DNA from: Ramlibacter pallidus
GTDB lineage: Bacteria > Pseudomonadota > Gammaproteobacteria > Burkholderiales > Burkholderiaceae_C
Reading direction: 5' to 3'
DNA length: 64,000 bases
Assembly (NCBI RefSeq): GCF_015070875.1
Contig: NZ_JADDIV010000003.1
Span: forward strand, 1-64,000
Below the pieces are notes generated by a model. The model saw nothing but the letters and a program-made list of their open reading frames with translations, was not told the DNA's origin and searched no databases. Both the position numbers and the translations under genes were made by a program. Below, one piece after another: positions 2,641-17,267 of the stretch (position 1 is the first letter of the stretch; each line of letters begins with the position of its first letter).

Positions 2641-3765
2641 GTGGACAAGCGCATCGTCGGGATCGTGTGCGGCACCCGGCCGGAGATCATCAAGCTCGCA
2701 CCGGTCTATCACGCGCTGCGTGGGCAGGAGGAGCTCTGCGTGATCTGGGTGCACACGGGGCAGCACGGGGACATGGCGGCGGACATGCTGCGCTCCTTCG
2801 GCATCACGCCGGACGAGCAGCTGTGCCGCAAGGGCACGTCGCTCGAGGAATTCAGCGTGGAGTGCCGTTCGCAGCTCGACGCGCTGATGGCGCGCCAGCG
2901 CTGGGACTTCTGCATCGTGCAGGGCGACACCGAGAGCGCCTTCCTCGGCGCGCTCACCGCCTTCTACCGCCGCATCCCCGTGGGCCACGTCGAGGCGGGC
3001 CTGCGCACCTACAACCTGGAACGCCCCTTCCCCGAGGAAGGCCTGCGCCAGATGATCAGCCGCATCACCAACATGCACTGGGCGCCGACCGAGCGCGCCC
3101 GCGCCGCGCTGCTGCGCGAAGGCATCGAGCCCGAGAAGATCGTGCTGACCGGCAACACCGTCGTCGATGCGCAGCAGTGGATCTGCGACAAGCACGGCAT
3201 CCGCCGCGAAGGCCCCGCCTCGCAAGGCCACATCCTGGTGACGGCGCACCGCCGCGAGAACTGGGGCGAGGAGATGGCGCAGACCTTCCACGCCGTGGCG
3301 GACATCGCCCGCGCCTTCCCGCAGCGCCGCGTGCTGTTCCCGGTGCACCTGAACCCGGTGGTGCAGCGTCCGGCGCACGAGATCCTGGACGGCCTGGACA
3401 ACGTGAAGCTGGTGGCGCCCCTCGACTACCTCGGCATGCAGCAGGCGCTCGTGAACGCGGTGCTGCTGCTCACGGACTCCGGCGGCCTGCAGGAAGAGGC
3501 GCCGACCTTCGGCGTCCCGACGCTCGTGCTGCGGCATGAAACCGAGCGCCCCGAAGCAGTCGAAGCCGGCTGCGCGCGACTCGTGGGACCGAAGCGCGAT
3601 GCGATCGTCCGCGAAGCCACCCGCCTGCTGCAGGACGAGGCGGCCGCCGATGCGATGCGCAAGGTGTCCAACCCGTTCGGCGACGGGCAGGCCGCCCGTC
3701 GCATCGCCGACGAAGTGATGACGCGCCTGGTGGTGCGGGCCGACGCGGCCGCGATCGCCGCCTGA
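2641..3765 (+). CDS. wecB: UDP-N-acetylglucosamine 2-epimerase (non-hydrolysing)
   Basis: WecB interconverts UDP-GlcNAc and UDP-ManNAc in the cytoplasm, supplying ManNAc for polysaccharides. The 374 residues match the family length. Family motifs visible are CGTRPEIIKLAPV near the N-terminus, GDTESAFLGALTAFY, VGHVEAGLRTYN with the catalytic Glu, and DSGGLQEEAPTFGVPTLVLR near the C-terminus. The GTG start is chosen because GGGAGG lies eight bases upstream and the reading from there matches the family's N-terminus. Upstream in-frame codons add a non-conserved extension. It is the first gene of a seven-gene operon; the next gene starts 17 bases later. Its position next to an NfrB-like glycosyltransferase suggests it makes the donor sugar for that synthase. 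Confidence 0.93.
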   Translation: MDKRIVGIVCGTRPEIIKLAPVYHALRGQEELCVIWVHTGQHGDMAADMLRSFGITPDEQLCRKGTSLEEFSVECRSQLDALMARQRWDFCIVQGDTESAFLGALTAFYRRIPVGHVEAGLRTYNLERPFPEEGLRQMISRITNMHWAPTERARAALLREGIEPEKIVLTGNTVVDAQQWICDKHGIRREGPASQGHILVTAHRRENWGEEMAQTFHAVADIARAFPQRRVLFPVHLNPVVQRPAHEILDGLDNVKLVAPLDYLGMQQALVNAVLLLTDSGGLQEEAPTFGVPTLVLRHETERPEAVEAGCARLVGPKRDAIVREATRLLQDEAAADAMRKVSNPFGDGQAARRIADEVMTRLVVRADAAAIAA

Positions 3766-3782
3766 AAGCGCAGGAGAACCCG

Positions 3783-4181
3783 ATGACCCTTCACCTGTTC
3801 CGCTGCTCGCTGCTGGGTGCGGCGTGCCTGGCCGGCCTCGCCCATGCGCAGGTCACGCCGCCCCCGCTGCCGCCCGGCTCGCACATGGTCCGGCCCGAGC
3901 CGGGCCTCAACGAGGAGGAGCGCAAGCGGCACGTCCGCGCGCACCACCACAAGTTCCACCACAAGAAGGACGTGACGCGCGACGACAGCGTCCACGGCCA
4001 CGAGAGCCTCGTGCCGACCAGCGGCCCCGCCGGGGCTGCCGCCGGAGGGCAGGGCGGGGGCGCCGCCGCCGCACCCGGCCGCGCGGGCGCCGCGGGGCAG
4101 GGCGGTGCGGGCACCGGACCGCAGCGAGAGAAGACCGACCGGGGCGCCAGCTCCTATTTCCACGGCAACGACAAGAAGTGA
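3783..4181 (+). CDS. Small secreted His-rich, Gly/Ala-rich protein
   Basis: A 132-residue protein with a clear signal peptide ending in LAHA (about residue 22), a proline-rich mature start and a histidine/lysine cluster HVRAHHHKFHHKKD (about residues 50-63). A Gly/Ala-rich low-complexity stretch (about 80-110) follows, then a polar tail. No family is recognised. It lies between wecB and the deacetylase-like gene with gaps of 17 and 15 bases, so it belongs to the operon. The histidine cluster could bind a metal or a negatively charged polymer, but this is only inferred from composition. GCAGGAG before the ATG serves as ribosome site. Confidence 0.75.
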   Translation: MTLHLFRCSLLGAACLAGLAHAQVTPPPLPPGSHMVRPEPGLNEEERKRHVRAHHHKFHHKKDVTRDDSVHGHESLVPTSGPAGAAAGGQGGGAAAAPGRAGAAGQGGAGTGPQREKTDRGASSYFHGNDKK

Positions 4182-4196
4182 AGTGAGAACCCAGCC

Positions 4197-5888
4197 ATGA
4201 AACTCCTCCAGCGATTCCTGCTTCCGGCGCTTGCCGTCGCCGCCTTCGCGGGCACGCAGCTGCCCGCACAGGCCCAGACGCCCACGCGGACCGCCACCAC
4301 GGCGAGCACGACGACCACCCCCACGACGACGCCGCCCAAGGCCCTGGTGCTGTACGACACCGCGCCCGGCACCGAGTGGGACAAGATGGGCCTCGCGTAC
4401 TCCATCATGCTGCGCAACCTGCTGGGGCATTTCGACGCGCAGGTCGACCTGCTCCCGGTGCAGCAGTACACCGCCGGCAAGCTGAACAACTATACGGCCA
4501 CCTTCTACCTTGGCGCCCTGTACGACACGCCGATCCCGGCCGCCTTCCTCGCCGACGCGAACACCACCACCAAGACGGTGGTCTGGTTCAAGTACAACCT
4601 GTGGCAGCTCGCCTGGAACCAGGCCTACAACTTCACCGCCGCCAAGGGCATCCAGCTCAATGGCCTGCGCGGCCTGAACGCGGCGCCCACGTCCACGAAC
4701 CCCGAGCCCGGCTTCTTCAACACGGTGAAGTACAAGGGACTGGACTTCGTCAAGTACTACACCTACGACAGCGTCCGCAACGTCGTCAGCGCGGACCCGG
4801 ACATGCTCGAGGTCGCGATCACCGACCCGGTCAAGGCGCAGGTCGTCGTCCCGGTGGCCAACCCGAAGGCGAACCAGACGGCGCCCTACGTCACGCGCTC
4901 GGGCAACTTCTGGTACGTGGCCGACCTGCCTTTCAGCTTCATCGGGCCGCGCGACCGCTACCTGGTCTTCAGCGACCTGCTGCACGACATCCTCGGCGTG
5001 CAGCACGCCGAAAGCCACAAGGCGCTGATCCGCCTGGAGGACGTCGGCGCGCTGGTGTCGGTGGACGCGATGAAGAAGCTCAGCGACTACATGAAGTCGC
5101 GCAACGTGCCCTTCTCGGTGGCGGTGATCCCGCGCTACGTCGACGGCCTCGGCGCGTACAACGGCGGCGTGCGGCAGGAGATCCACCTGTCGCAGGCGAC
5201 CAACCTGCGCTCCTCTCTCGAATATGCCCGTGCCCGCGGCGCCGAGATGGTGATGCACGGCTTCACCCACCAGTACGGCACGATGAAGAACCCGCACACC
5301 GGCGTGAGCGGCGACGACTACGAGTTCTGGAACATCGTGGCCAACCAGCCCTTCCCGGAGGACTCGCCCTCCTGGGTGCTCGGCCGCCTGAACCAGGGCC
5401 TGACCGACATGAAGGCGCACGGCCTGAACCCCATCGCCTGGGAAGCGCCGCACTACCACACGTCCGCCATCGCGGCGAGGACGGCGCCGCAGCTGTTCAG
5501 CACCACCTACCAGCGCGTCGTGTACTACACCGCGGACAAGCCGGTGTTCTTCGGCACCAACAAGGACTTCAGCGTCGGCCAGTTCTACCCGTACGTGATC
5601 GGCAAGGACTACTACGGCCAGTACGTGCTGCCGGAGAACCTGGGCAACATCGAGTACGACATCAGCGAGATCGACCCGACCTCCAACTACAACTACACGG
5701 CGGACGACCTGCTGCTGAACGCGAAGTACGCCAAGACGGTGCGGGATGGCTTCGCCTCCTTCTTCTTCCACCCCTTCTGGCTCGAACCCAACCTCGGAAC
5801 GCCCGGCTTCGAGGACTTCAAGAAAACGATCGAGGGGATCAGCGCGCTGGGCTTCACCTGGGTCGCTCCCGGCACGCTGCGCCGCTGA
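4197..5888 (+). CDS. DUF2334 polysaccharide deacetylase-like protein
   Basis: A secreted 563-residue protein. The signal peptide ends near QAQA (residue about 27), and a Thr-rich linker follows. The next part (about 45-270) starts KALVLYDTAPGTEWDKMG and is typical of the N-terminal half of DUF2334 proteins. The catalytic-like domain starts with ALIRLEDVGALVSVDAM, in which the Asp could bind metal. MHGFTHQYGT carries the spaced histidines of the NodB-like fold, and EAPHYHTS is near the C-terminal part. Such proteins belong to the carbohydrate esterase 4-like superfamily and often accompany exopolysaccharide synthases. In this operon the likely job is periplasmic removal of N-acetyl groups from a ManNAc- or GlcNAc-type polymer. 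Substrate and activity are inferred. Confidence 0.85.
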   Translation: MKLLQRFLLPALAVAAFAGTQLPAQAQTPTRTATTASTTTTPTTTPPKALVLYDTAPGTEWDKMGLAYSIMLRNLLGHFDAQVDLLPVQQYTAGKLNNYTATFYLGALYDTPIPAAFLADANTTTKTVVWFKYNLWQLAWNQAYNFTAAKGIQLNGLRGLNAAPTSTNPEPGFFNTVKYKGLDFVKYYTYDSVRNVVSADPDMLEVAITDPVKAQVVVPVANPKANQTAPYVTRSGNFWYVADLPFSFIGPRDRYLVFSDLLHDILGVQHAESHKALIRLEDVGALVSVDAMKKLSDYMKSRNVPFSVAVIPRYVDGLGAYNGGVRQEIHLSQATNLRSSLEYARARGAEMVMHGFTHQYGTMKNPHTGVSGDDYEFWNIVANQPFPEDSPSWVLGRLNQGLTDMKAHGLNPIAWEAPHYHTSAIAARTAPQLFSTTYQRVVYYTADKPVFFGTNKDFSVGQFYPYVIGKDYYGQYVLPENLGNIEYDISEIDPTSNYNYTADDLLLNAKYAKTVRDGFASFFFHPFWLEPNLGTPGFEDFKKTIEGISALGFTWVAPGTLRR

Positions 5889-5922
5889 AGCCGCCCCGAC
5901 ATCCACATAACGAGGTACCAAC

Positions 5923-7992
5923 ATGAAACTTGCCCGTGTCCTGCCCGCCGCCGCGCTGGCGGCCCTGAGCCTGGTCCCGCTGTGGGGAACGGCGCAACAG
6001 GCGTCCCAGCCGCCGCTGCGCCCCGCCCAGCAGATGACCCCGCCCGCCGTGCCGCCGCAGACCTCGGTCTTCCGGCCCGTGGACCCCAACGCACCCGGCG
6101 CGCCGGCCGCGGCCGCCGAGGCCAACGCCGGCGTCTGGGTCCCGCGCACCATCACGTTCGCGGAACTGGGGTTCACCGAGCCGGTGGTGCTCGGCTACCC
6201 GGACACGATCAAGGAGATCTACCTGCCGGTGCCCCCGGGCGTGAACCTCTCCGGCGGTTCGCTGCAGCTCGATGCGAGCTACGTGCGCGCCGACGGCGGC
6301 CGCACGACGCTGGTGTACGCGATCGACGGCGCCCCGGTGCAGGCCATGGGCATGACCGCCGACCGCGGCGACGCCAGCGTCACCGTTCCCGTCGACGGCA
6401 AGCCGCGCCCGAGCGGCTTCGTCCGCCTGAACATCGACTGGCGCACCGCCGTCGCCCGCGAGAACACCTGCGCCGACGCCCGCACGCCCGGCAACATCCT
6501 GCGGATCGAGCCCACCAGCAAGTTCGTGTTCCGCTACGACGGTTCCGCCATCCAGGACCTGACCACGGCCTGGGGCGCGCTGCCGCCGATGCCGAACGTG
6601 CAGATCGCGTCCAGCAACCTGCAGTCGCAGGTGTACGACACTGCGTGGCGCGTGGGCGTGGCGCTGGAGCGCGCCGGCAAGCGGCCCCGCTTCCGCACCG
6701 CCGACGGCAGCGGCGCCCCGGCGGCCGCTCAGCCCGGCATGGCAGCCCCCGTGGCCGGCGGCTCCACCGAGCCCGACATCGTGATCGGCGGCCAGGCGGG
6801 CCCGAAGGAGATCCGCATCGCCAGCATGAACGGCCGCCCGGTGATCATGGTCGGCGCGGAGGCGGGGGCACAGGCCGCCGGCCTCTTCAGCCAGATCTGG
6901 TCGCAGGTCGCCGCAGGCTCCGCGCTGACCGTGAGCGCGATCGATGCGCCCAAGAGCGACTCCAACGCGGTGTCGCTGCAATACCTGGGCGCCAAGCCCG
7001 CCAGCTTCGACGTGCTGGCGCACGCGGACTGGAACGCCAGCTTCGACATCGGCGCCGTCGCCGCCGACGGCAAGGGTCCCGGCACGCTGGTGATCGACGT
7101 CGCCGCCTCGCCGAGCGCCGCCCGCACGCCCCCGGTCGTCTCGGTCTTCATGAACGACGTGCTGCTGGGCGCCAAGGAGATGGAAGCCAACGGCAAGCGC
7201 GAGCGCATCGTCGCGCCGGTGCCGCGGTATGCGCTGCAGACTCGCAACGTGATCCGCGTGTCCTTCGTGCGCCAGCTGGCCTCCGACCGCTGCCGCGAGA
7301 CGCCCGAGGCGTACCCCGTGAGCGTGCTGGCCTCCAGCCACATGCTGCTGGACAAGATCGAGCCGCGCGGCGACTTCACCGGCCTGATGTCCAAGTTCGC
7401 CAACGGCGGGACGCTGCTGGTCCCGCAGTCGCACCTGGCCGACGCCGCCAACACGCTGCCGCGCGTGGTGCGCCTGGCCGCCAGCACCGGCCTGTCGCCG
7501 GTCAAGGCGAAGTTCCAGCCGACCTCCGGCAACACCGCCAAGGTGGAGGGCCCGTACCTCGCGATCGACGTCATGCCCGAGGGCGTGGCCGAGGGCGTGA
7601 AGCCGGAGCAGGACCGCCTGTTCCTGGCCGGCACCAAGGACCGCCCGCTGCTGGACGTCCGCGGCCTCAACCGGGTCGGCATCATCGAGGTGCACGGCAC
7701 CGGCGACAACGTGGGCGCCGTCTACCGCACGCTCGGCAACACGCCGCCGTCCATGGAGAAGCCGATCCAGCTGTCCGGCGGCAACCTGGCCATCATGGGC
7801 AACAACGGCCTGCGCACGGAGGTCAACACGCACGACCCGTCGGGGCAGGGCGCGATGCGCGAGGCGCAGCCCGGCCTGTTCGAGCGCGGCTACTGGTGGC
7901 TGCTGCCGCTGGTGATCCTGGCGCTATTCATCGGCCTGCTGGTCTTCGCCTCCCGCATGCGCCGCCGCAAGGCCATGGCCGGGGACCGTTGA
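5923..7992 (+). CDS. BcsB-like periplasmic polysaccharide synthase partner
   Basis: A 689-residue protein with an N-terminal signal peptide (ending near GTAQQ), a long periplasmic region and one C-terminal membrane helix (WWLLPLVILALFIGLLVFA) followed by a basic tail. This matches the topology of BcsB, the membrane-anchored periplasmic subunit that guides cellulose out of BcsA. The early sequence RTITFAELGFTEPVVLGYP and the later repeated sugar-binding-like and flavodoxin-like parts are also BcsB-like. The family domain binds carbohydrate; the c-di-GMP site of cellulose synthase is in BcsA, so direct nucleotide binding is not expected. No bcsA is present. The NfrB-like synthase 39 bases downstream is the probable partner. 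Confidence 0.85.
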   Translation: MKLARVLPAAALAALSLVPLWGTAQQASQPPLRPAQQMTPPAVPPQTSVFRPVDPNAPGAPAAAAEANAGVWVPRTITFAELGFTEPVVLGYPDTIKEIYLPVPPGVNLSGGSLQLDASYVRADGGRTTLVYAIDGAPVQAMGMTADRGDASVTVPVDGKPRPSGFVRLNIDWRTAVARENTCADARTPGNILRIEPTSKFVFRYDGSAIQDLTTAWGALPPMPNVQIASSNLQSQVYDTAWRVGVALERAGKRPRFRTADGSGAPAAAQPGMAAPVAGGSTEPDIVIGGQAGPKEIRIASMNGRPVIMVGAEAGAQAAGLFSQIWSQVAAGSALTVSAIDAPKSDSNAVSLQYLGAKPASFDVLAHADWNASFDIGAVAADGKGPGTLVIDVAASPSAARTPPVVSVFMNDVLLGAKEMEANGKRERIVAPVPRYALQTRNVIRVSFVRQLASDRCRETPEAYPVSVLASSHMLLDKIEPRGDFTGLMSKFANGGTLLVPQSHLADAANTLPRVVRLAASTGLSPVKAKFQPTSGNTAKVEGPYLAIDVMPEGVAEGVKPEQDRLFLAGTKDRPLLDVRGLNRVGIIEVHGTGDNVGAVYRTLGNTPPSMEKPIQLSGGNLAIMGNNGLRTEVNTHDPSGQGAMREAQPGLFERGYWWLLPLVILALFIGLLVFASRMRRRKAMAGDR

Positions 7993-8031
7993 GTTGACGT
8001 GTTGCAGCAGTAGGCAACGAGGAGAGAAGCC

Positions 8032-10203
8032 ATGAACTGGGACCTGATGATCGCGGAGTACAACTCCGGCCTCGAAGTGCTCGCCGCGATCCTGACGCTG
8101 GTCATCTTCGTCTCCTCGCTCGACGACCTGTTCATCGACCTCTGGTACTGGGTGCGGCGGATCTTCCGCCGGGCCCGGCTCGAGCGCACCCCGCAGTACC
8201 GCCGCCTCACCGTGGAACAGCTGCGCGACCGCGAGGAACAGCCGCTGGCGATCATGGTGCCGGCCTGGCAGGAAAGCGACGTGATCGCCGCCATGGTGCA
8301 GAACATGGTGGAGGTGCTGGAGTACCGCAACTACCGCGTGTTCGTCGGCACCTATCCCAACGACCAGCCCACCATCGACGAGGTGGAGCGCATGGTCAAG
8401 CGTTATCCGCAGCTGCAGCGGGTGCAGGTGCCGCATCCCGGCCCGACCAGCAAGGCCGACTGCCTGAACGCGGTGGTCGCCGCGATCTTCGAACACGAGC
8501 GCGAGCACGGCGTCGAGTTCGCGGGCGTGGCGCTGCACGACAGCGAGGACGTGCTCCATCCACTGGAGCTGAAGTTCTTCAACTACCTGCTGCCGCGCAA
8601 GGACATGATCCAGTTGCCGGTGGCGTCGCTGGAGCGCGAGTGGTACGAACTCGTCGCCGGCACCTACATGGACGAGTTCGCCGAGAGCCACGCCAAGGAG
8701 ATGGTGGTGCGCGAGAGCGTCTCCGGCATGGTGCCGTCGGCCGGCGTGGGAACCTGCTTCTCGCGCAAGGCGCTGCTGGCGCTGATCGGCTCCACCCGCA
8801 ACAAGCCCTTCAACATCGACAGCCTGACCGAGGACTACGACGTGGGCATGCGCCTGGCGCAGCTGAACATGACGTCGATCTTCGGCGTGTTCCCGGTCAC
8901 CTTCCACATCAGCCGCACGTCCTGGGGCAGCAAGAAGCGCCGCGAGCTGCTGATGCAGATGCCTCTGTGCGTCCGCGAGTACTTCCCCGACAATTTCCGC
9001 GCGGCCTACCGGCAGAAGGCGCGCTGGGTGCTCGGCATCGGCCTGCAGAGCTGGGAGCAGATCAAGTGGCGCGGCCAGTCGCTGGCGGCGCGCTACCTGC
9101 TGCTGCACGACCGCAAGGGCGTGGTCACCTCGTTCGTCAGCATCCTGGCGTACATCCTGGTGGCGCACTTCATCCTGTTCCACGTCGGGCTTGCGACGGG
9201 CTGGTGGCACGCGTACTACCCGTCGCTGTTCCAGGAAGGCAGCATCTGGCGCGCGATGATCTACGTCAACGCCTTCTTCCTCGCGATCCGCGCGGCGCAC
9301 CGGGTGTACTTCACTTCCGCGCTGTACGGCTGGGAGCACGGCGTGATGTCGCTGCCGCGCATGGTGGTCGGCAACTTCGTCAACTGCATGGCCGTGGCAC
9401 GCGCCTGGAAGATGTACCTGGGCTACCTGTTCAAGGGCAACCGCCTGGCCTGGGACAAGACCGCGCACGAGTTCCCGAGCAGCACCCAGCTGGCGCGCCG
9501 CCGCCAGCGCCTGGGCGAGCTGCTGCAGTCGTGGAATGCGGTGGAGCCCGGCGCGCTGGAACGTGCGCTGGAGAAGCAGCAAAGCGGCGGCGTCCCGCTC
9601 GGCCGCGTGCTGGTGTCCAACGGCTGGCTGGACGAGGAGACGCTGGCCGAGGCCATCGCCTACCAGGCCGACCTGCCGCGTGCGCACCTGTCGGCCGAAC
9701 TGGTGCGGCAGCATGCGGCCGACATGCCGCTGGAGCTGGCCGTGCGCCATCGCGCCGTGCACATGGGCCGCAACAAGAACGGCCGGCCGATCCTCGCGGT
9801 GACCAGCCCGCTGTCGGAAATGGCGCTGGCCGACATCACGCAGGCCATCGGCCAGGAGCCGGTGCAGCGCATCGCCCGCGAAGGCGAGCTCGCCGTGGCG
9901 CTGCGGCTGCTGCGCGAAACGCAGGGCGAGAAGGCCACCGCCGTGCCCAGCGGCCCGCTGCTGGGCGACATGCTGATCGAGCGCGGCCTGCTGCGCAAGG
10001 ACGAGTTCGAGCACGCGATGCAGGAGTACAAGCCCAACCAGCATGGCCGCATCGGCGACTACCTCGTGGAGCGCGGCGTCATCGCGCGCGAGATGCTCGA
10101 GCAGGTCGTGCAGGAGCAGCGCAGCTTCTTCGCCCGTGCCGCCGCGCAGCCCGAACAACAGCAGAGGGGATTCTTCGGCAAGCCGTCCGCCCAACCCACC
10201 TAG
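8032..10203 (+). CDS. nfrB: NfrB-like c-di-GMP-responsive glycosyltransferase
   Basis: An inner-membrane family 2 glycosyltransferase fused to a C-terminal MshEN region, the architecture of E. coli NfrB (745 residues; 723 here). A membrane helix lies at about 15-40. The GT-A domain has VPAWQESDV, the DSED metal site, TEDYDVGM and the QKARW acceptor motif. More helices follow at about 365-460. From about residue 490 come paired motifs of MshEN type: RLGELLQSWNAVEPGALERA, then LGRVLVSNGWLDEETLAEAI, and again near 640-700 LGDMLIERGLL and RIGDYLVERGVI. MshEN domains bind c-di-GMP, so synthesis is probably switched on by that messenger. GGAGAGAAG precedes the ATG; the nfrA-like gene starts eight bases after the stop. 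Confidence 0.92.
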   Translation: MNWDLMIAEYNSGLEVLAAILTLVIFVSSLDDLFIDLWYWVRRIFRRARLERTPQYRRLTVEQLRDREEQPLAIMVPAWQESDVIAAMVQNMVEVLEYRNYRVFVGTYPNDQPTIDEVERMVKRYPQLQRVQVPHPGPTSKADCLNAVVAAIFEHEREHGVEFAGVALHDSEDVLHPLELKFFNYLLPRKDMIQLPVASLEREWYELVAGTYMDEFAESHAKEMVVRESVSGMVPSAGVGTCFSRKALLALIGSTRNKPFNIDSLTEDYDVGMRLAQLNMTSIFGVFPVTFHISRTSWGSKKRRELLMQMPLCVREYFPDNFRAAYRQKARWVLGIGLQSWEQIKWRGQSLAARYLLLHDRKGVVTSFVSILAYILVAHFILFHVGLATGWWHAYYPSLFQEGSIWRAMIYVNAFFLAIRAAHRVYFTSALYGWEHGVMSLPRMVVGNFVNCMAVARAWKMYLGYLFKGNRLAWDKTAHEFPSSTQLARRRQRLGELLQSWNAVEPGALERALEKQQSGGVPLGRVLVSNGWLDEETLAEAIAYQADLPRAHLSAELVRQHAADMPLELAVRHRAVHMGRNKNGRPILAVTSPLSEMALADITQAIGQEPVQRIAREGELAVALRLLRETQGEKATAVPSGPLLGDMLIERGLLRKDEFEHAMQEYKPNQHGRIGDYLVERGVIAREMLEQVVQEQRSFFARAAAQPEQQQRGFFGKPSAQPT

Positions 10204-10211
10204 GGGTCACG

Positions 10212-12509
10212 ATGAAACAACAACAACGAAAGGCGCTGGCCCTCGCCGCCGTGCTGGCGCTTTCTTCCCTGGCAGCCGCGGCCCAGGCACCGGCGCGCCC
10301 GGCCGCACGGGGCGCGCAAGCCGCCCATGCGGCGGCCGACGCCGGCTACAAGGCGTACGCCCGGCGCGACTACGCCGCCGCGATGGCCGCTGCGCAGCGG
10401 GCGGTGCAGCTGGCCCCGGCGCGGCGCGACTACTGGCTGCTGCTGGCGCAGTCGCAACTGGCGCTGGGCCGGGCCGACGAGGCCGAGCAATCCCTCAACC
10501 GGGCCGCGCAGGCGAGTGGTGACGACGCCGCCCTGGCGCGCGCACGCGCCGACTGGTCCCGCTCGCGCGCCCTGGTGGCCGGCGAGGCCATGTACAAGGC
10601 GCTGCAGGCCGGCGACGTGCGCGGCGCGATCACGCAAGGCACCGAGGCCGTGCGGCTGGCGCCGGAGAACGCGGCCTTCCGGCTGGTGCTGGTGCACGCG
10701 CTCCTGCGCGACAACCGGCATGCCGACGCCGAGCGCGTCGCCACCGAAACCATCGCGCTGCTGCCGGACAGCGCGGCGCCCCTGGCGCTGCGTGCGTATG
10801 CGCGGCAGGGACTGAACCGCCCCTCCGACGCCGCGGCGGACCTGGAGCGCGCCCTGCAGCAGCGCGGCGTGCAGCCGGCCCACCAGCGGCAGTTGCGCCT
10901 GCTGGCCGCGGACCTGGCGCTGGCGCAAGGCAACGCCCAGCGGGCGGCGGACCTGCTGGCCGCATTCCCCGCCGACGATGCCGAAGCGGCGTCGCGCCGC
11001 GAGCTGGCCCGCCAGCGCATCGCCGGCACCGCGCCGGCGTACGCCTTGCGCGCGCCCGGCATCGACTGCAGCAACGTGGAGGCTTCGCAGACCTGCATCC
11101 TGCTGGCGGCGGCCGTGCCGCCGCAACCCGGCTTCGCCAATGCGACGGCCGCCTACCGCGCCCTCGAGGAGCGCGACGTCCAGCGAGCGCTCGCGCAGGC
11201 GCGCCTGGCGACGCAGGCGTCTCCCGGCCAGCGCGACTGGCACCTGATGCACATGAACGCGGCCCTGGCCGCCGGCGAGCAGGCCGAGGCGGAGCGCGCG
11301 GCGACCGCGGCCCTGGCGCTCGGCGCGGACCCGGTGGTGCTGGCGCAGCGCTCTTCGATCCGGCGCGGCCTCGGCGACGTGGCGGGCGCCAATGCGGACG
11401 CCGAAGCGGCCCTGCAGTCGGGCGCGCTGCCGCCCCAGCGCGAAGCCGCACTGCTGGCGGAACTGGGCCGCACGCGCGAAGCCCGCGCCCGGCTGGCGAC
11501 CTTGCCGCCGACCGCGCAGACGCCCGCGGCCAACCTGGACATGGCGTACCTTTCCACGCGCGTCGGCGACGACAAGGCGGCCCGCGAGGCCTTCGCCAGG
11601 GCCGACGCCGCCGGCGGCCTGCCGCCGACGTCGCTGCTGGATGCCGGTTATGCCGCGATGCGCAGCCACCAGGACGGCGAGGCCGTTGCGTACTTCAAAC
11701 GCGCGATCGACGCCGTGAACGGCCTGCAGCTGAAGATGGAGCCGCAGATGGTGTACGACACCCGCCGCACCATCGCCGACGTGTCGCGCAAGTGGGGCGT
11801 GCTGGCCTCGATCACGATGCGCAACGGCAGCGGCGTGCAGCCGGGCTTCGGCCAGGTCGGCGGAGGCGGTGGCCGGCGCACGTGGCAGGCCGGCGCCGAG
11901 GCCTACTACCGGCCCTGGGGCTTCCGCAATGGCCAGTTCGTCGAGCTGTTCGCGCGCGGCTTCGCCACGCTGGACGACCAGGCCGGCGGCAACACCGGCG
12001 GCGACAGTTTCCAGGGCGGCGTGGGCGTGCGCTGGAAGCCGCTCACGGCGCAGAACCTCGTGCTGTCCTTCAGCCGCGTGTTCGGCCCGAACGTCAACGA
12101 CGACTGGCTGGCGCAGATCGGCTATTCGCTGGACTACGGCACCGACCTGCGCGTCGATGCCCGCAGCTGGTGGACGTCGCGCATGTATGCCGAGATCGGC
12201 CACTACCTGGAGAACGGCAACACCTACGGCATCGCGCAGGCGATGCTGGGGCGCAGCTATCTCGTGGGCGGCGATGGCCGCACGGTGCTGTTCCCGCACG
12301 GCTTCGTCGGCGTGGAGTACAGCTCGAACGACCCGGTGGCGAAGACCTCCGCCGGGATCGGGCCGGGCGTGAGCCTGCGGCGCTGGTTCCGCGAGGACAC
12401 GTACAACGCGCCGCGGTCGTACTGGGACCTCACGCTGCAGTACCGCGCGCGCCTGTCGGGCGACGACCGCATGCGCGGCCTGTTCCTCAACGGGCTGCTG
12501 TCGTACTGA
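10212..12509 (+). CDS. nfrA: NfrA-like TPR and outer-membrane protein
   Basis: A 765-residue exported protein. The signal peptide ends near AAAQA (about residue 25). Alanine-rich tetratricopeptide-like repeats occupy about 35-500. The C-terminal part from about 530 (VLASITMRNGSGVQPG onward) has the alternating aromatic pattern of an outer-membrane beta barrel (QAGAEAYYRPWGF, FVELFARGFATLD, LTLQYRARLSG) and resembles the NfrA C-terminal domain. In E. coli NfrA is the outer-membrane partner through which the NfrB-made glycan leaves and which phage N4 uses. This copy is shorter than E. coli NfrA (about 990), mainly in the TPR part. The ATG was chosen for the signal peptide; upstream codons overlap the nfrB gene. 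Confidence 0.87.
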   Translation: MKQQQRKALALAAVLALSSLAAAAQAPARPAARGAQAAHAAADAGYKAYARRDYAAAMAAAQRAVQLAPARRDYWLLLAQSQLALGRADEAEQSLNRAAQASGDDAALARARADWSRSRALVAGEAMYKALQAGDVRGAITQGTEAVRLAPENAAFRLVLVHALLRDNRHADAERVATETIALLPDSAAPLALRAYARQGLNRPSDAAADLERALQQRGVQPAHQRQLRLLAADLALAQGNAQRAADLLAAFPADDAEAASRRELARQRIAGTAPAYALRAPGIDCSNVEASQTCILLAAAVPPQPGFANATAAYRALEERDVQRALAQARLATQASPGQRDWHLMHMNAALAAGEQAEAERAATAALALGADPVVLAQRSSIRRGLGDVAGANADAEAALQSGALPPQREAALLAELGRTREARARLATLPPTAQTPAANLDMAYLSTRVGDDKAAREAFARADAAGGLPPTSLLDAGYAAMRSHQDGEAVAYFKRAIDAVNGLQLKMEPQMVYDTRRTIADVSRKWGVLASITMRNGSGVQPGFGQVGGGGGRRTWQAGAEAYYRPWGFRNGQFVELFARGFATLDDQAGGNTGGDSFQGGVGVRWKPLTAQNLVLSFSRVFGPNVNDDWLAQIGYSLDYGTDLRVDARSWWTSRMYAEIGHYLENGNTYGIAQAMLGRSYLVGGDGRTVLFPHGFVGVEYSSNDPVAKTSAGIGPGVSLRRWFREDTYNAPRSYWDLTLQYRARLSGDDRMRGLFLNGLLSY

Positions 12510-12511
12510 CG

Positions 12512-13342
12512 ATGCGGCGCTTCATCGTGGGCCTGGCGGCGGCCGCCATGCTGCTGGCGGGCTGCGCCTCGACGGTGCCGCCCATCGAGGGCGTCGTCTG
12601 GCAGATCGACAACGAGCACACCGATCCGCGCGGCGACTGGCAGAAGCTGGGCGTGAAGCACCTGCTGGTCCAGTGGAGCGTGGTGGACGACCTGGCTTTC
12701 GTGCCGGGGACCGGGCTGGCGCCGGGCAAGGCGATGCCGGACTGGCCGCGCATCGGCCGCGAGCCCTGGGCGGGCGAGGTGATCCTCGGCCTGGCCGGCC
12801 GCTTCGACGAACGCAGCGCGCGCGAGAACATCGACGCCCTGGTGCAATTGTCCGCCCGCGTCGCGAAGACGCCGCCGCCGGTGAACGTCACCGGCTGGTA
12901 CTTCCCGGTGGAGATCGACCCGACCTGGATGGATGCGGCGCGGCTCGGCCCCTTGCTGCGGCAGCTGCCCAAGCCCCTCTGGATCAGCGTCTACGACAGC
13001 GCCAACGTCGGGCCGGAAGAACTGGCGCAGAGCCTGGTCGAGTGGCTGCCGCCGGACGTCGGCGTGTTCTTCCAGGACGGCGTGGGCGTGCATGCGCGCG
13101 AACCCTTCGTGGCGCGCCACTACGCGAACGTGCTGGTGCGCCGGCTCGGCCGGGACCGCGTGCGCGTCATCGCCGAAGCCTTCCGGCCGAAGGAGGGCGG
13201 GGGCTTCCGTCCGGCCACGCTGGAAGAGTTGAAGCCCCAGCTGGCCACCTACCGTGACTTTCGCATCTACTTGTTCGAGGGGCCGCGCTACGTGCCGCCG
13301 GCCCTGGTCGAGGGCCTCGCCGCAGGACAGGAACGGAGGTAG
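12512..13342 (+). CDS. Lipoprotein with TIM-barrel-like glycosidase look (DUF4434-like)
   Basis: A 276-residue lipoprotein: the lipobox LAGC puts the lipidated cysteine at residue 18. The mature part (VVWQIDNEHTDPRGDWQKLG, HLLVQWSVVDD, GWYFPVEIDPTWMD, LWISVYDSANVGPEE, VGVFFQDGVGV) has the strand-by-strand acidic residues of a TIM-barrel glycoside hydrolase and resembles DUF4434 proteins. It follows the nfrA-like stop by two bases, so translation is probably coupled. A periplasmic hydrolase that trims the polymer is the likely role, comparable to the accessory hydrolases of other exopolysaccharide systems. Activity is not shown by sequence alone. Confidence 0.75.
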   Translation: MRRFIVGLAAAAMLLAGCASTVPPIEGVVWQIDNEHTDPRGDWQKLGVKHLLVQWSVVDDLAFVPGTGLAPGKAMPDWPRIGREPWAGEVILGLAGRFDERSARENIDALVQLSARVAKTPPPVNVTGWYFPVEIDPTWMDAARLGPLLRQLPKPLWISVYDSANVGPEELAQSLVEWLPPDVGVFFQDGVGVHAREPFVARHYANVLVRRLGRDRVRVIAEAFRPKEGGGFRPATLEELKPQLATYRDFRIYLFEGPRYVPPALVEGLAAGQERR

Positions 13343-13416: not shown

Positions 13417-15351
13417 ATGAAAAAGTTGCTTACGCCCCGGCGGAACCTGGTCCTCGTCCTGTGCGTGGGGGCGTGGACGGGGTGGGCCGCTGCGCAGTCG
13501 CTGGGGGCCCCGGCCGCCGAAGCATGGATCGGCCGCCCGCTGGACATGACGGTGCCGGCGCGTTTCCTGTCGCCGGACGCCGAGTGCGTGCATGCCGACG
13601 TGTTCTATGGCGAGAACCGGCTGCGGAGCAGCCAGGTGCGCGCCAGCGTGACCGGAGGCGACGCCAAGCGCATCCGCATCCAGGCCGACGCGCTGATCGA
13701 CGAGCCGATCGTCACCGTCTCCGTGCGGGCCGGCTGCGGCAGCTCCATCACGCGCAACTACACGCTGCTGCCCGAGTTGCCCAGCGAATCGGTGATCGCC
13801 GCCTGGAACCGCCAGGCCGCGGCCGTTGCCGCGGCACCGGCCGCTCCGCTGCGCATGGCGAACAGCGCCGCGCTCGCGACGAGCCCGCGCGTGCGCGCGC
13901 CACGGCCGGCCGCGGCGCAGGTGGCGGCCGCCCCCGCTCCGTCCGCGCCCGCACCGCGCTCGCGTGCGGCGGAAGCACCGCGCCAGGAAGCCGCCGCGGG
14001 CCCGCGCCTGCGGCTCGAGCCTCTGGAATTCGATCAGCAACCCCTGCTGCGCGTGAGCTCCAACCTCGCGGACCCGGCGGGCAATGCCGCGGGCCGGGCC
14101 ACGGCCGCCTTGCTGTGGCAGGCGATCAACGCGGATCCGCAGGAGATCCTGCGCACCAGCGCCATGCTGCAGAAGCTGGAGACCGACCTCCTGCAGCTGC
14201 GCCGCACCAACGACCAGACGCGCGCCGAAATGGCCGCGCTGCGCAGCCGGCTCGACGAAGCGCAGCCCTGGCATGCATCGCCCGTCGTGGCACAGGTGCT
14301 GGCGCTGCTCGTGCTGGCGGCCGCCACGGCCGCCGGCGTGCTGTGGTTCCGCGGCCGGCGCGAGGAAGGCGCGCAGGCTTCCTGGTATGCGCAGGCCGAG
14401 CCGGCACCGGCCGAGGCCATGGCCGAAGTGCCTGCGGCGGCGCCGCCTCAGCACGTGCCGGTGCATGCGAGCCGGAGCGCCACGCCCGACGTCCCGACGC
14501 CGCCGCCTGCCGCAGTGCCCGCGCGGGGGGGCGCCGGGCCGATCGAGTTCGAAGCCGTCGTGCCCGTGCCGAGGCCCCCGCAGCGCCGTCCCGCGGTCAT
14601 GCGCGTGGAGACGCTGGCGGCCACCTTCGAGGAAGCCGAGTTCCTCGCCTCCCTCGGCCTGGGCAAGGACGCGATGGACGTGCTGAAGGCCTACCTGCAA
14701 GACAGCGCCAGCCCGGCGCCGGTCGCCTTCTTCGAACTGATGCGGCTGTGCGAACAGGCCGGGGAACCGGCCGCGGTGGCGATGGTCCGCCGCCGCTACG
14801 AGAAGGCGTTCGGCCTCGAGCCGCCGCCGCTCGAGCGCCTGGCGGGGCCGGCGGGCCTGGAAAGCCTGCCTCGACTCAGCGCCCGTATCACGCAGGCCTG
14901 GGGCCGGCCCGAAGTCCTGGACATCCTGGAGGAGGCGCTGTTCCACGTCCCCGAGCCCGAGGGGGCGTTCACGCTGCAGGCGGGACGCGAGCTGATCTCC
15001 CTGCACGGCCTCGCGGTGGCGCTGGCCGAGGACGGCGAAGGGGCCCCGGTGGGCCACGAGGCCGATCCGCATCCGCTCGCGCCCTGGGCGCATGCCGACG
15101 ACACCGCGTCCGCCCTGGCGGCGACGCAAGGCAGCGTCGGCGGGGAAGGCGGCCACCATTTCGCCCTCGACTTCGACCTGGGGACCGCGGCCCCGGAGGC
15201 CGCGCCGCAGGCCGAGGGCCCGCGCGCCGCGTTGCCGCTGCCGCCGTCGCGGGCGAACGCTTCGCGCGAGGCCGCGCGGCGGACGCGCGAGCAGGAGGAC
15301 GCCTTCAGCGAGGCCATGCACGGCGAGCGGGTCCCCGTCAGCCGCTTCTGA
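13417..15351 (+). CDS. FimV-like membrane protein
   Basis: A 644-residue protein with a signal peptide or anchor at the N-terminus (KLLTPRRNLVLVLCVGAWTG). A FimV-N-like beta domain follows (IGRPLDMTVPARFLSPDAEC to about 120), then an Ala/Pro-rich region, a short coiled-coil-like stretch (about 245-285) and a membrane helix (VVAQVLALLVLAAATAAGVL, about 290-310). The C-terminal part contains a TPR-like helical stretch (FEEAEFLASLGLGKDAMDVL onward), as in FimV/HubP proteins that organise polar machinery and type IV pili. Assignment rests on architecture, so it is tentative. An in-frame GTG at 13405 is an alternative start; neither has a good ribosome site. The EAL-domain gene follows by 17 bases. 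Confidence 0.65.
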   Translation: MKKLLTPRRNLVLVLCVGAWTGWAAAQSLGAPAAEAWIGRPLDMTVPARFLSPDAECVHADVFYGENRLRSSQVRASVTGGDAKRIRIQADALIDEPIVTVSVRAGCGSSITRNYTLLPELPSESVIAAWNRQAAAVAAAPAAPLRMANSAALATSPRVRAPRPAAAQVAAAPAPSAPAPRSRAAEAPRQEAAAGPRLRLEPLEFDQQPLLRVSSNLADPAGNAAGRATAALLWQAINADPQEILRTSAMLQKLETDLLQLRRTNDQTRAEMAALRSRLDEAQPWHASPVVAQVLALLVLAAATAAGVLWFRGRREEGAQASWYAQAEPAPAEAMAEVPAAAPPQHVPVHASRSATPDVPTPPPAAVPARGGAGPIEFEAVVPVPRPPQRRPAVMRVETLAATFEEAEFLASLGLGKDAMDVLKAYLQDSASPAPVAFFELMRLCEQAGEPAAVAMVRRRYEKAFGLEPPPLERLAGPAGLESLPRLSARITQAWGRPEVLDILEEALFHVPEPEGAFTLQAGRELISLHGLAVALAEDGEGAPVGHEADPHPLAPWAHADDTASALAATQGSVGGEGGHHFALDFDLGTAAPEAAPQAEGPRAALPLPPSRANASREAARRTREQEDAFSEAMHGERVPVSRF

Positions 15352-15368: not shown

Positions 15369-17267
15369 ATGGCCTTCGTGCAGCACAGTCCCTCGAGCGC
15401 CGACCCCGCCGCCCTGTTGCTCGATGCGGCGGGCACGCGGGGCGCGCGCCCGAGCCGCCCGGCCTGGCTGTACACGGCGGCCCTGCATCCCGCCGACGAG
15501 CCGCAGCGCATCGCCGAACTCCACGCGTTCGCCATCCTGGACACCGAGCCGGACGAAGACTTCGACCGCCTGGTGCAGCTGGCCACGGTGCTGTGCGGCA
15601 CGCCGATGGGTGCGCTGACCCTGGTCGACAGCCAGCGGCAGTGGTACAAGTCGCGCGTCGGCGTGCCCGTGCAGCAGGTCGCCCGCGACAAGTCCTTCTG
15701 CGCCCACGCGATCCTCGAGACCGACCGCGTGCTGGAGATCCCGGACGTGTCGCGCCTCGGCTGGGCCGACCCGCAGCCCTGGGGCGCGAAGGGCCCCACG
15801 CTCGGCTTCTATGCGGGCGTGCCGCTGCGCACCGGCGACGGCAGCGCGATCGGCACGCTCTGCGTGATGGACCAGGTCCCGCGCCGGCTGACCGACAGCC
15901 AGCGCGATGGCCTCGTGAAGCTGGCCAAGGCCGTGTCCAGCCTGCTGAACCTGCGCCGCCAGCTGCGCATCGCCACCGAAACCGACCGGCTGACCGGGCT
16001 GCCCAACTGGTTCCACTTCGAGGCGGAGTTCGACCACCGCAAGCCGGCCTGCGGCATGGTCTGCTTCGTGCGCCTGAAGACCATCAACCAGATCAACTCG
16101 GCCCACGGCTTCCGCGTGGCCGACGGCCTGATCAAGCAGACGGCGGACCGCCTGCGCGTCTTCGGGGAGGGCGGCGCATTCATCGGGCGCATCAAGCGCG
16201 GGCTGTTCATCCTGTTCTTCCCGGATGCCAAACCCGGCGACTTCGCGCGCAGGATCGCCCCCGAACTGGCCGCGAGCCTGGGCCGCCCCTACGAGGTCAA
16301 CAACCTGGCGCTGGTGTGCCCGGTGAACCTGGGCTTCGCCTCCTTCCCGGACGACGGCCGCAGCCTCGACGAGGTGGTGAACGCCGCGGACACCGCGTTG
16401 CAGGTGGCGATCGAACGCGAGGAGCCGATGGCCTTCTTCGACCGTTCGGTGCACAACGTCCAGAGCATGCATTACCGCCTGGAGCCGCAGCTGCGCCGGG
16501 CCCTCGCGTGCGACGAGTTCGTCAACTACTACCAGCCGAAGGTGGAGCTCGCCACCGGGCGGATCGTCGGCGTCGAGGCCCTGGTGCGCTGGATGGACCC
16601 GAACCGCGGCCTGGTGCCGCCGGGGGAGTTCGTGCCGGCGCTGGAGACCACCGGCCTCATCGGCGAGGTGGCGCAGAAGATCATGGAGCGCGCGATCGCC
16701 GACTGGTGCACGTGGCGCGATGCCGGCCTGGCCGCCCCGCGCGTCGCGGTGAACGTGGCCGCGACGCAGTTGCGCAACGACGATTTCGTGCCGTCGCTGC
16801 GCCGCGCGCTCGCTGCGCTGCGCGGCGACCCGGTGGCGCTGGGCATCGAAGTCACCGAAAGCATCCTGATCTCCAACATGGAGCGCGCCATCGAGGTGCT
16901 GCAGCAGGTGCGGGCACTGGGCGTGCCGGTCGCGATCGACGATTTCGGCACCGGCTATTCCTCGCTGGCATACATCGTCACGCTGCCCATCGACGAACTC
17001 AAGATCGACCGGGCCTTCGTCAAGAAGATCACGGCCGACAAGGCCTACGAAGGCATCGTGCGCACCTGCGTGTCGCTCGCGCGCGGGCTGAACCTCAAGG
17101 TGGTGGCCGAAGGCGTGGAGACCGAAGCGCAGGCCATCAAGCTGCGCGACCTGCAGTGCGACCAGGCGCAGGGCTTCTTCTACAGCCCGCCGGTCCCGGC
17201 GGACCAGCTGGTGCGCATGCTCAAGGCCGGCCCCATGGTGGTGCCGGGGGCGGACACGCCGGCCTGA
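15369..17267 (+). CDS. GAF / degenerate GGDEF / EAL protein (likely c-di-GMP phosphodiesterase)
   Basis: A 632-residue soluble protein. A GAF domain (about 45-195) contains DKSFCAHAILETDRVLEIPD. A GGDEF-like domain (about 200-365) has lost its signature: the position reads GRIKRGLFILFF (about residue 273 on), so no cyclase activity is expected. The EAL domain (about 375-620) is intact: VEALVRW with Glu403, ESILISN, AIDDFGTGYSSLAY, ELKIDRAFVKK and AEGVET. It is therefore expected to hydrolyse c-di-GMP, with GAF and the dead cyclase domain as sensors. GAAGGAAG provides the ribosome site. It lies 17 bases after the FimV-like gene, suggesting a polar or local signalling unit, and close to the c-di-GMP-binding NfrB-like synthase. 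Confidence 0.9.
   Translation: MAFVQHSPSSADPAALLLDAAGTRGARPSRPAWLYTAALHPADEPQRIAELHAFAILDTEPDEDFDRLVQLATVLCGTPMGALTLVDSQRQWYKSRVGVPVQQVARDKSFCAHAILETDRVLEIPDVSRLGWADPQPWGAKGPTLGFYAGVPLRTGDGSAIGTLCVMDQVPRRLTDSQRDGLVKLAKAVSSLLNLRRQLRIATETDRLTGLPNWFHFEAEFDHRKPACGMVCFVRLKTINQINSAHGFRVADGLIKQTADRLRVFGEGGAFIGRIKRGLFILFFPDAKPGDFARRIAPELAASLGRPYEVNNLALVCPVNLGFASFPDDGRSLDEVVNAADTALQVAIEREEPMAFFDRSVHNVQSMHYRLEPQLRRALACDEFVNYYQPKVELATGRIVGVEALVRWMDPNRGLVPPGEFVPALETTGLIGEVAQKIMERAIADWCTWRDAGLAAPRVAVNVAATQLRNDDFVPSLRRALAALRGDPVALGIEVTESILISNMERAIEVLQQVRALGVPVAIDDFGTGYSSLAYIVTLPIDELKIDRAFVKKITADKAYEGIVRTCVSLARGLNLKVVAEGVETEAQAIKLRDLQCDQAQGFFYSPPVPADQLVRMLKAGPMVVPGADTPA

Follow-up and report, generated by a model that had tools for sequence, protein, structure and literature searches.

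A probable NfrB-type exopolysaccharide operon with a predicted deacetylation module in Ramlibacter pallidus

In Escherichia coli, nfrB, nfrA and ybcH form one operon (nfrBA-ybcH); wecB lies beside nfrB in other bacteria and an alginate-type acetyltransferase module is present in Simplicispira (PMC8669469). In Achromobacter, O-acetyltransferase genes and a homologue of BcsB are reported to belong to the cluster of nfrA, nfrB and wecB (PMC8669472). Acinetobacter has a PGR locus that bears NfrB-, BcsB- and WecB-like genes and makes a phage receptor, the BcsB-like gene being required for phage adsorption (PMC12507263). Here, we analyse a related operon in a 64,000-nucleotide stretch of Ramlibacter pallidus DNA (positions 1 to 64,000 of contig NZ_JADDIV010000003.1, assembly GCF_015070875.1; this whole stretch is termed the window). 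The host of the operon is a soil bacterium, and the locus encodes a DUF2334 protein and a histidine-rich protein together with WecB-, BcsB-, NfrB-, NfrA- and YbcH-like proteins. We consider that the operon is best explained as an NGR/PGR-type (NfrB-type) exopolysaccharide operon with a deacetylation module, and assign this explanation a probability of roughly 0.6.

Operon core, synthase and lipoprotein

The operon comprises seven open reading frames (ORFs) on the plus strand, spanning positions 2641–13342 (Table 1) and separated by 17, 15, 34, 39, 8 and 2 bases in order, which agrees with the seven one-strand genes and gaps of 2–39 bases given by the first-pass annotation of the window. The full order wecB-His-DUF2334-bcsB-nfrB-nfrA-ybcH is kept in L017, L031 and L033, and the same order is seen up to nfrA in L032 and up to nfrB in L037 (in which DUF2334 is doubled), where the sequence ends; the seven-gene set is thus not due to chance. 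Each operon gene is also a single open frame in L031 and L033, and the closest relatives of the synthase, among the best 80 of 574 NfrB matches, are those of Ramlibacter loci L030 (91% identical) and L031 (88%). In Ramlibacter terrae H242 (L044:5490-15309) the same operon is split into many frames over several genes, through either sequencing error or decay. The promoter scan returned 0 promoter-like sites (0.6 in shuffles) and the terminator scan 8 terminator-like sites (5.8 in shuffles, standard deviation 2.6), in both cases nothing clearly beyond chance.

Table 1. Genes of the operon and its downstream neighbours. Families were assigned via the curated cut-offs of Pfam and NCBIfam; start codons were picked by hand, and features marked "by eye" were judged manually.
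Gene product	Position	Strand	Evidence
WecB/NfrC-like UDP-GlcNAc 2-epimerase	2641..3765	+	GTG start; TIGR00236 395 bits (cut-off 210)
His-rich, probably secreted protein	3783..4181	+	conserved core HHHK and KD...RDD; signal peptide by eye; no Pfam or NCBIfam family match
DUF2334 protein, predicted periplasmic metal-dependent polysaccharide N-deacetylase	4197..5888	+	PF10096 156 bits, E 1.1e-45; signal peptide by eye
BcsB-like periplasmic subunit	5923..7992	+	PF03170 29.9 bits (cut-off 21); hydrophobic C-terminal segment by eye
NfrB-like processive GT2 synthase, C-terminal MshEN	8032..10203	+	NF012033 1060.6 bits (cut-off 537); PF05157; NF053729
NfrA-like outer-membrane exporter, TPR repeats and NfrA_C	10212..12509	+	PF13283 157 bits, E 6.1e-46; TPR families, TPR_19 over cut-off
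YbcH-like lipoprotein, glycoside-hydrolase-type TIM barrel	12512..13342	+	LAGC lipobox by eye; DUF4434 31.5 bits (cut-off 30, narrow)
FimV-like protein	13417..15351	+	74-base gap from operon; FimV_N 13.8 bits, below cut-off of 27
GAF-GGDEF-EAL protein, predicted c-di-GMP phosphodiesterase	15369..17267	+	17 bases past FimV-like gene; EAL E 1.6e-68

The synthase carries the glycosyltransferase family 2 (GT2) motifs HDSED (169–173), TED (266–268) and QKARW (328–332), with the same motifs at the aligned places of E. coli NfrB, as well as an MshEN domain (PF05157, 28.6 bits, cut-off 23.1; NF053729, 85.7 bits, cut-off 38) exhibiting the motifs RLG at 493 and PLG at 522. Residues L494-G495 align with the Leu-Gly pair of E. 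coli NfrB, where L490 and G491 have been tested and where changes to this MshEN pair are reported to hurt infection by phage N4 (PMC8669469, PMC8669472). The protein reaches 637.6 bits against the NCBI NfrB equivalog NF008411, under its cut-off of 1170, and clears NF012033, which is named only glycosyl transferase family protein; it is therefore an NfrB-type synthase and not the NCBI equivalog of E. coli NfrB, so that the NfrB-likeness proposed at first is retained for the GT2 motifs, MshEN and NF012033 but falls short at the equivalog level. The WecB, BcsB-like and NfrA-like porin assignments of the first-pass annotation, together with the MshEN of the synthase, were borne out by families over curated cut-offs and by kept motifs, and the NfrA-like protein, by its NfrA_C and tetratricopeptide repeat (TPR) matches, corresponds to the TPR-beta-barrel exporter of an NfrB-type system. 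A cellulose (Bcs) reading was rejected, as no PilZ domain was found in the synthase up to E 0.1 in the Pfam scan and MshEN is present instead. Among the relatives, NfrB paralogues are encoded in L041:10007-11983 (R. cellulosilyticus), L047:9938-12001 and L020/L058, with nfrA, bcsB and wecB undetected in these stretches; L020/L058 ends inside nfrB and has an EAL gene just upstream on the opposite strand. In the same-family loci L006-L010, which bear O-acetylation genes, and in L011, the match to the window NfrB stops near residue 545–560 and the open frames measure 568–646 residues versus 729 in the window, such that the C-terminal part of NfrB seems to be missing.

The operon was compared across 93 stretches with an NfrB relative: the window, 12 stretches that come from 11 further genomes in its family, and 80 named loci, in which L020 and L058 are one contig listed twice. 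Gene presence refers to anywhere within a stretch, with many contigs being cut. A BcsB-like gene is present in 87 of the 93, nfrA in 85, wecB in 77 and a ybcH-like lipoprotein gene in 66; as the named loci are the best 80 of the 574 NfrB matches, the bcsB and wecB counts apply to that side of the NfrB tree on which the window lies. For the 74 stretches reaching 5.9 kb upstream and 8 kb downstream, the numbers are 70 (bcsB), 72 (nfrA), 66 (wecB), 59 (ybcH), 29 (AlgX) and 6 (DUF2334). The order wecB-bcsB-nfrB-nfrA, mostly then ybcH, is found in Pseudomonas, Paraburkholderia, Herbaspirillum, Stenotrophomonas (ybcH being undetected in the Stenotrophomonas loci of this comparison) and some alphaproteobacteria, for example Microvirga; L057 and L087 show ybcH and nfrA reversed relative to most other loci. 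The usual arrangement on this side of the tree includes wecB as well as a BcsB-like and a lipoprotein gene. The core was already known, and what had been described as an enlarged operon is enlarged by two genes only, that for DUF2334, seen in 10 of the 93 stretches, and the His-rich one, seen in 7. NfrB itself was found in 12 of 200 family genomes (own included), with no match in the other two genomes of the same genus in that sample (G097, G198), whilst a BcsB-like gene lies near NfrB in two of the seven other class genomes with NfrB (G350, G471; some contigs are short). The genome of R. pallidus also holds a second wecB-like gene elsewhere, 34% identical to that of the operon; with two such genes, this genome is not accounted for by the rule that wecB stands beside nfrB when no other WecB exists (PMC8669469).

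The lipoprotein, previously taken for an addition to the nfr operon, proved to be a homologue of E. coli YbcH (hhalign 97.5%, E 6e-12; DUF4434 matched by both), the product of the third gene of nfrBA-ybcH (PMC8669469). Its structure model (predicted local distance difference test, pLDDT, 91.7) gives fold matches to a glycoside-hydrolase-type TIM barrel, with the acids E134 and E222 at the ends of strands 4 and 7, and it is on this modelled fold that we regard the protein as a putative hydrolase. E. coli YbcH (NC_000913.3 587091-587981) likewise carries Glu at both of these candidate catalytic sites. The result suggests that YbcH, termed a putative scaffold in 2021, may be a glycan hydrolase.

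The DUF2334 protein and its linkage to nfr genes

In 16 homologues of the DUF2334 protein, residues E281, D282, H354, H358, H419 and H525 are invariant and R440 is kept in 15. The protein thus possesses the Asp, HxxxH motif and late catalytic His of a metal site, mapped by order only to the motifs of Agd3, an enzyme of carbohydrate esterase family 18 (CE18) that deacetylates a fungal amino-sugar polymer (PMC7229062). These invariant residues and the PF10096 match uphold the earlier description of the protein as deacetylase-like; from its conserved motifs, it is probably a metal-dependent N-deacetylase. No other DUF2334 gene was found in the genome, which holds two PF01522 genes elsewhere. Tandem DUF2334 pairs occur in L037:4063-7818 and L121:8063-12873, the L121 copies giving E 5e-224 vs 2e-103 against the DUF2334 profile.

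Eight of the ten DUF2334 stretches belong to the window's clade, with DUF2334 upstream of bcsB; it follows wecB in all six with a detected wecB, and the remaining two are cut upstream (L034) or broken (L044). Outside this clade, DUF2334 lies between nfrA and ybcH in L028 and is divergent and upstream in L095 (Collimonas), both being without bcsB. The His-rich gene occurs with DUF2334 in all seven cases, all within the window's clade, and is present in each of the seven window-clade DUF2334 loci with enough upstream sequence; our guess is that its product delivers metal to the DUF2334 enzyme.

A DUF2334 profile, built from nine copies that are all nfr-linked, matched, in the family sample, 3 of 299 genomes, among them the own one; all three have nfr genes and all three contributed to the profile. 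In the class sample it matched 7 of 369 genomes (own included), NfrB being detected in 8 of the 369. Four of the six other class genomes carry nfr genes close to DUF2334: G401 (two DUF2334 copies, wecB, nfrB, nfrA and ybcH), G361 (nfrB-nfrA-ybcH-DUF2334), G329 (ybcH and nfrA on the opposite strand from DUF2334, then the contig end) and G350 (bcsB, wecB, nfrA and nfrB on the opposite strand, one ORF between); the NfrB matches in G401 and G312 span the GT part only. With the own genome left out, 368 class genomes yield NfrB in 7, DUF2334 in 6 and both in 4 (one-sided Fisher p 6.9e-7, uncorrected for kinship). Over the family and class samples, six of eight other DUF2334 genomes have nfr genes nearby, of which two (G010, G109) entered via NfrB and are in the profile. 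In other families too, relatives of DUF2334 are thus repeatedly encoded close to nfr genes, and the neighbourhood comparison outlined in the first-pass annotation yielded, across the 93 stretches and the class genomes, both recurrent wecB/bcsB/nfrB clusters and this linkage. On the NfrB tree (100 rows, L058 excluded), reduced to 88 rows by dropping L138 and L123 (long branches) and 10 rows without DUF2334 and with cut context, the presence of DUF2334 must have changed five times or more, and the rows that hold it do not form a single clade (p-AU 6.5e-54, long branches being involved); the tree is equally compatible with repeated gain, with transfer and with loss.

Homologues of AlgX and AlgF occur together in 35 of the 93 stretches, with MBOAT in 19 of those 35 (Pfam names were checked on the L064 and L045 examples), and none of the three was found in the 10 DUF2334 stretches, several of which are cut short. 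AlgX and DUF2334 are found together in 0 of 93 stretches, which kinship alone may explain: mutual exclusion as a separate effect was unsupported in a kinship test, with too few independent pairs. The nfr loci thus resemble a single core fitted with tailoring modules that can be swapped.

Downstream genes, proposed pathway and alternatives

FimV-like and EAL gene homologues stand at the equivalent place in L031, L033 and L044 (broken in L044). No terminator-like site was found in the gap between the operon and the FimV-like gene, and this gene is possibly part of the same transcription unit. The GAF-GGDEF-EAL protein is probably a cyclic di-GMP (c-di-GMP) phosphodiesterase because its EAL and DDFGTGYSS motifs are intact and GRIKRG replaces the GGDEF site, as also seen in L031, L033 and L044; by its position, the gene may serve the nfr operon. 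Most pseudomonads are described as having a GGDEF gene with nfr (PMC8669469). Some 2 kb further on, the window carries another GGDEF-EAL gene (19502-21556), whose GGDEF motif looks intact; L033 has a relative in the corresponding position.

In the pathway that we propose, WecB would supply UDP-N-acetylmannosamine (UDP-ManNAc), which NfrB, turned on by c-di-GMP at MshEN, would polymerise across the inner membrane. The BcsB-like subunit would then take over the chain, the periplasmic DUF2334 enzyme would strip some of the N-acetyl groups and the YbcH-like lipoprotein, as a TIM-barrel hydrolase, would trim or guide the chain prior to its export through NfrA, with the downstream EAL protein probably reducing c-di-GMP locally. 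DUF2334 and the YbcH-like protein would in this way form a PgaB/PelA-like deacetylase/hydrolase pair spread over two genes.

Several observations weigh against this explanation. The first acid of the DUF2334 site is Glu and not Asp, the structure prediction for the protein reached a pLDDT of only 35.8, and neither a significant match among solved-structure sequences nor hhalign kinship with E. coli PgaB was found. The linkage is also affected: a profile made from nfr-linked copies favours nfr-linked copies, G235 carries DUF2334 on a 5.6 kb contig in a genome where NfrB was undetected, and in G312 DUF2334 and NfrB are on separate contigs with no nfr gene within the 9.5 kb read around DUF2334. 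In an even phylum sample, the NfrB profile matched 29 of 369 genomes (17 in the GT part only) and DUF2334 only the own genome, making it a rare accessory. Furthermore, ybcH is dispensable for N4 infection of E. coli in the account of PMC8669469.

It is possible, if doubtful, that the same operon and polymer are at work and that DUF2334 is not a backbone N-deacetylase but cleaves off esters (O-acetyl or others) or is a non-catalytic binder of the chain. The evidence for the chemistry of DUF2334 is at the level of motifs, profile comparison found no kinship with PgaB, and the AlgX and AlgF genes in related loci indicate that ester chemistry is at home in the nfr system; however, with no AlgX, AlgF or MBOAT found beside DUF2334 (in stretches partly cut short), such a locus would make no O-acetyl group for it to remove, and all 16 homologues keep the complete metal-site set, which is unlike a dead binder. 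That the synthase takes another sugar nucleotide, with wecB serving a side branch or other pathway, we regard as unlikely: the second wecB-like gene would allow for this, as would the published passages on Nfr, in which no product chemistry is stated, but wecB accompanies nfrB in 77 of 93 stretches and E. coli requires WecB and not the other tested functions of the enterobacterial common antigen (ECA), as reported in PMC8669469 and PMC8669472. The patchy distribution of NfrB, with no match in G097 and G198, and the many frames of the R. terrae copy could point to a locus that is silent or in decay and currently makes no product, yet the seven window ORFs are intact with active-site residues kept, and single frames recur in L031 and L033, so that this appears very improbable.

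A more far-reaching idea, which we consider speculative and rather unlikely, is that the widespread Nfr glycan undergoes modular remodelling, by O-acetylation (AlgX/AlgF/MBOAT) in many lineages and by DUF2334 N-deacetylation in others. On this view, loss of N-acetyl groups would make a polycation out of a neutral ManNAc polymer, cause cells to stick together and take away the group that docking phages recognise or attack, and DUF2334 would be a host escape from receptor phages; Sellner et al. describe WecB-dependent phages as bearing glycan deacetylase tailspikes. A lineage-specific deacetylase-like gene tied to the Nfr glycan phage receptor provides a handle, in that the DUF2334 substrate would reveal the polymer, and a comparison of the deacetylated with the O-acetylated form would tell whether hosts modify a receptor that they keep. 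DUF2334, a term that the literature searched contains in one paper, in a metagenome correlation table, thereby gains a testable role.

Relation to known systems

The first-pass annotation knew of no described system with this exact set. Clusters of NfrB, WecB and BcsB genes are in print (PMC8669472 and PMC12507263), which narrows this claim; it stands for DUF2334, for which no link to nfr was found in the literature searched, most subscription papers and preprints lying outside that search.

PgaABCD, which makes poly-N-acetylglucosamine, shares with our proposal a deacetylase and TIM-barrel hydrolase acting on an amino-sugar polymer before export. E. coli PgaB unites both domains (PF01522 and PF14883) in one protein, whereas in Ramlibacter two genes from other families are present: DUF2334 and the lipoprotein match neither domain, and hhalign kinship was not found. 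With Agd3, DUF2334 shares the motif order acid-Asp, HxxxH, Arg, His (PMC7229062); the likeness is one of motif order and not of direct sequence comparison, with Glu as the first acid in DUF2334. The Bcs cellulose synthase shares the BcsB-type partner (PF03170 over cut-off) and differs in PilZ, which was not found on the Ramlibacter synthase.

The E. coli NGR system shares the GT2-MshEN architecture of NfrB, the NfrA exporter, a YbcH homologue and the WecB requirement (PMC8669469, PMC8669472); it differs in that wecB is in the ECA operon, BcsB-like and DUF2334 genes are absent from nfrBA-ybcH and DgcJ, encoded elsewhere, is used, whereas Ramlibacter has an EAL gene downstream. Common to the Acinetobacter PGR locus, in the text of PMC12507263, are NfrB-, BcsB- and WecB-like proteins, a porin and a protein likened to the C-terminal part of PgaB; there, a deacetylase is unmentioned in the main text and PgrA, resembling a diguanylate cyclase without the GGDEF motif, takes the place of an EAL gene. 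The Achromobacter and Simplicispira clusters likewise carry a modification module beside nfr, with Achromobacter also sharing the BcsB homologue and wecB (PMC8669472, PMC8669469), although the module named in those texts is an O-acetyltransferase and not DUF2334. The rest of the gene set is thus known, and the DUF2334 module is the new part.

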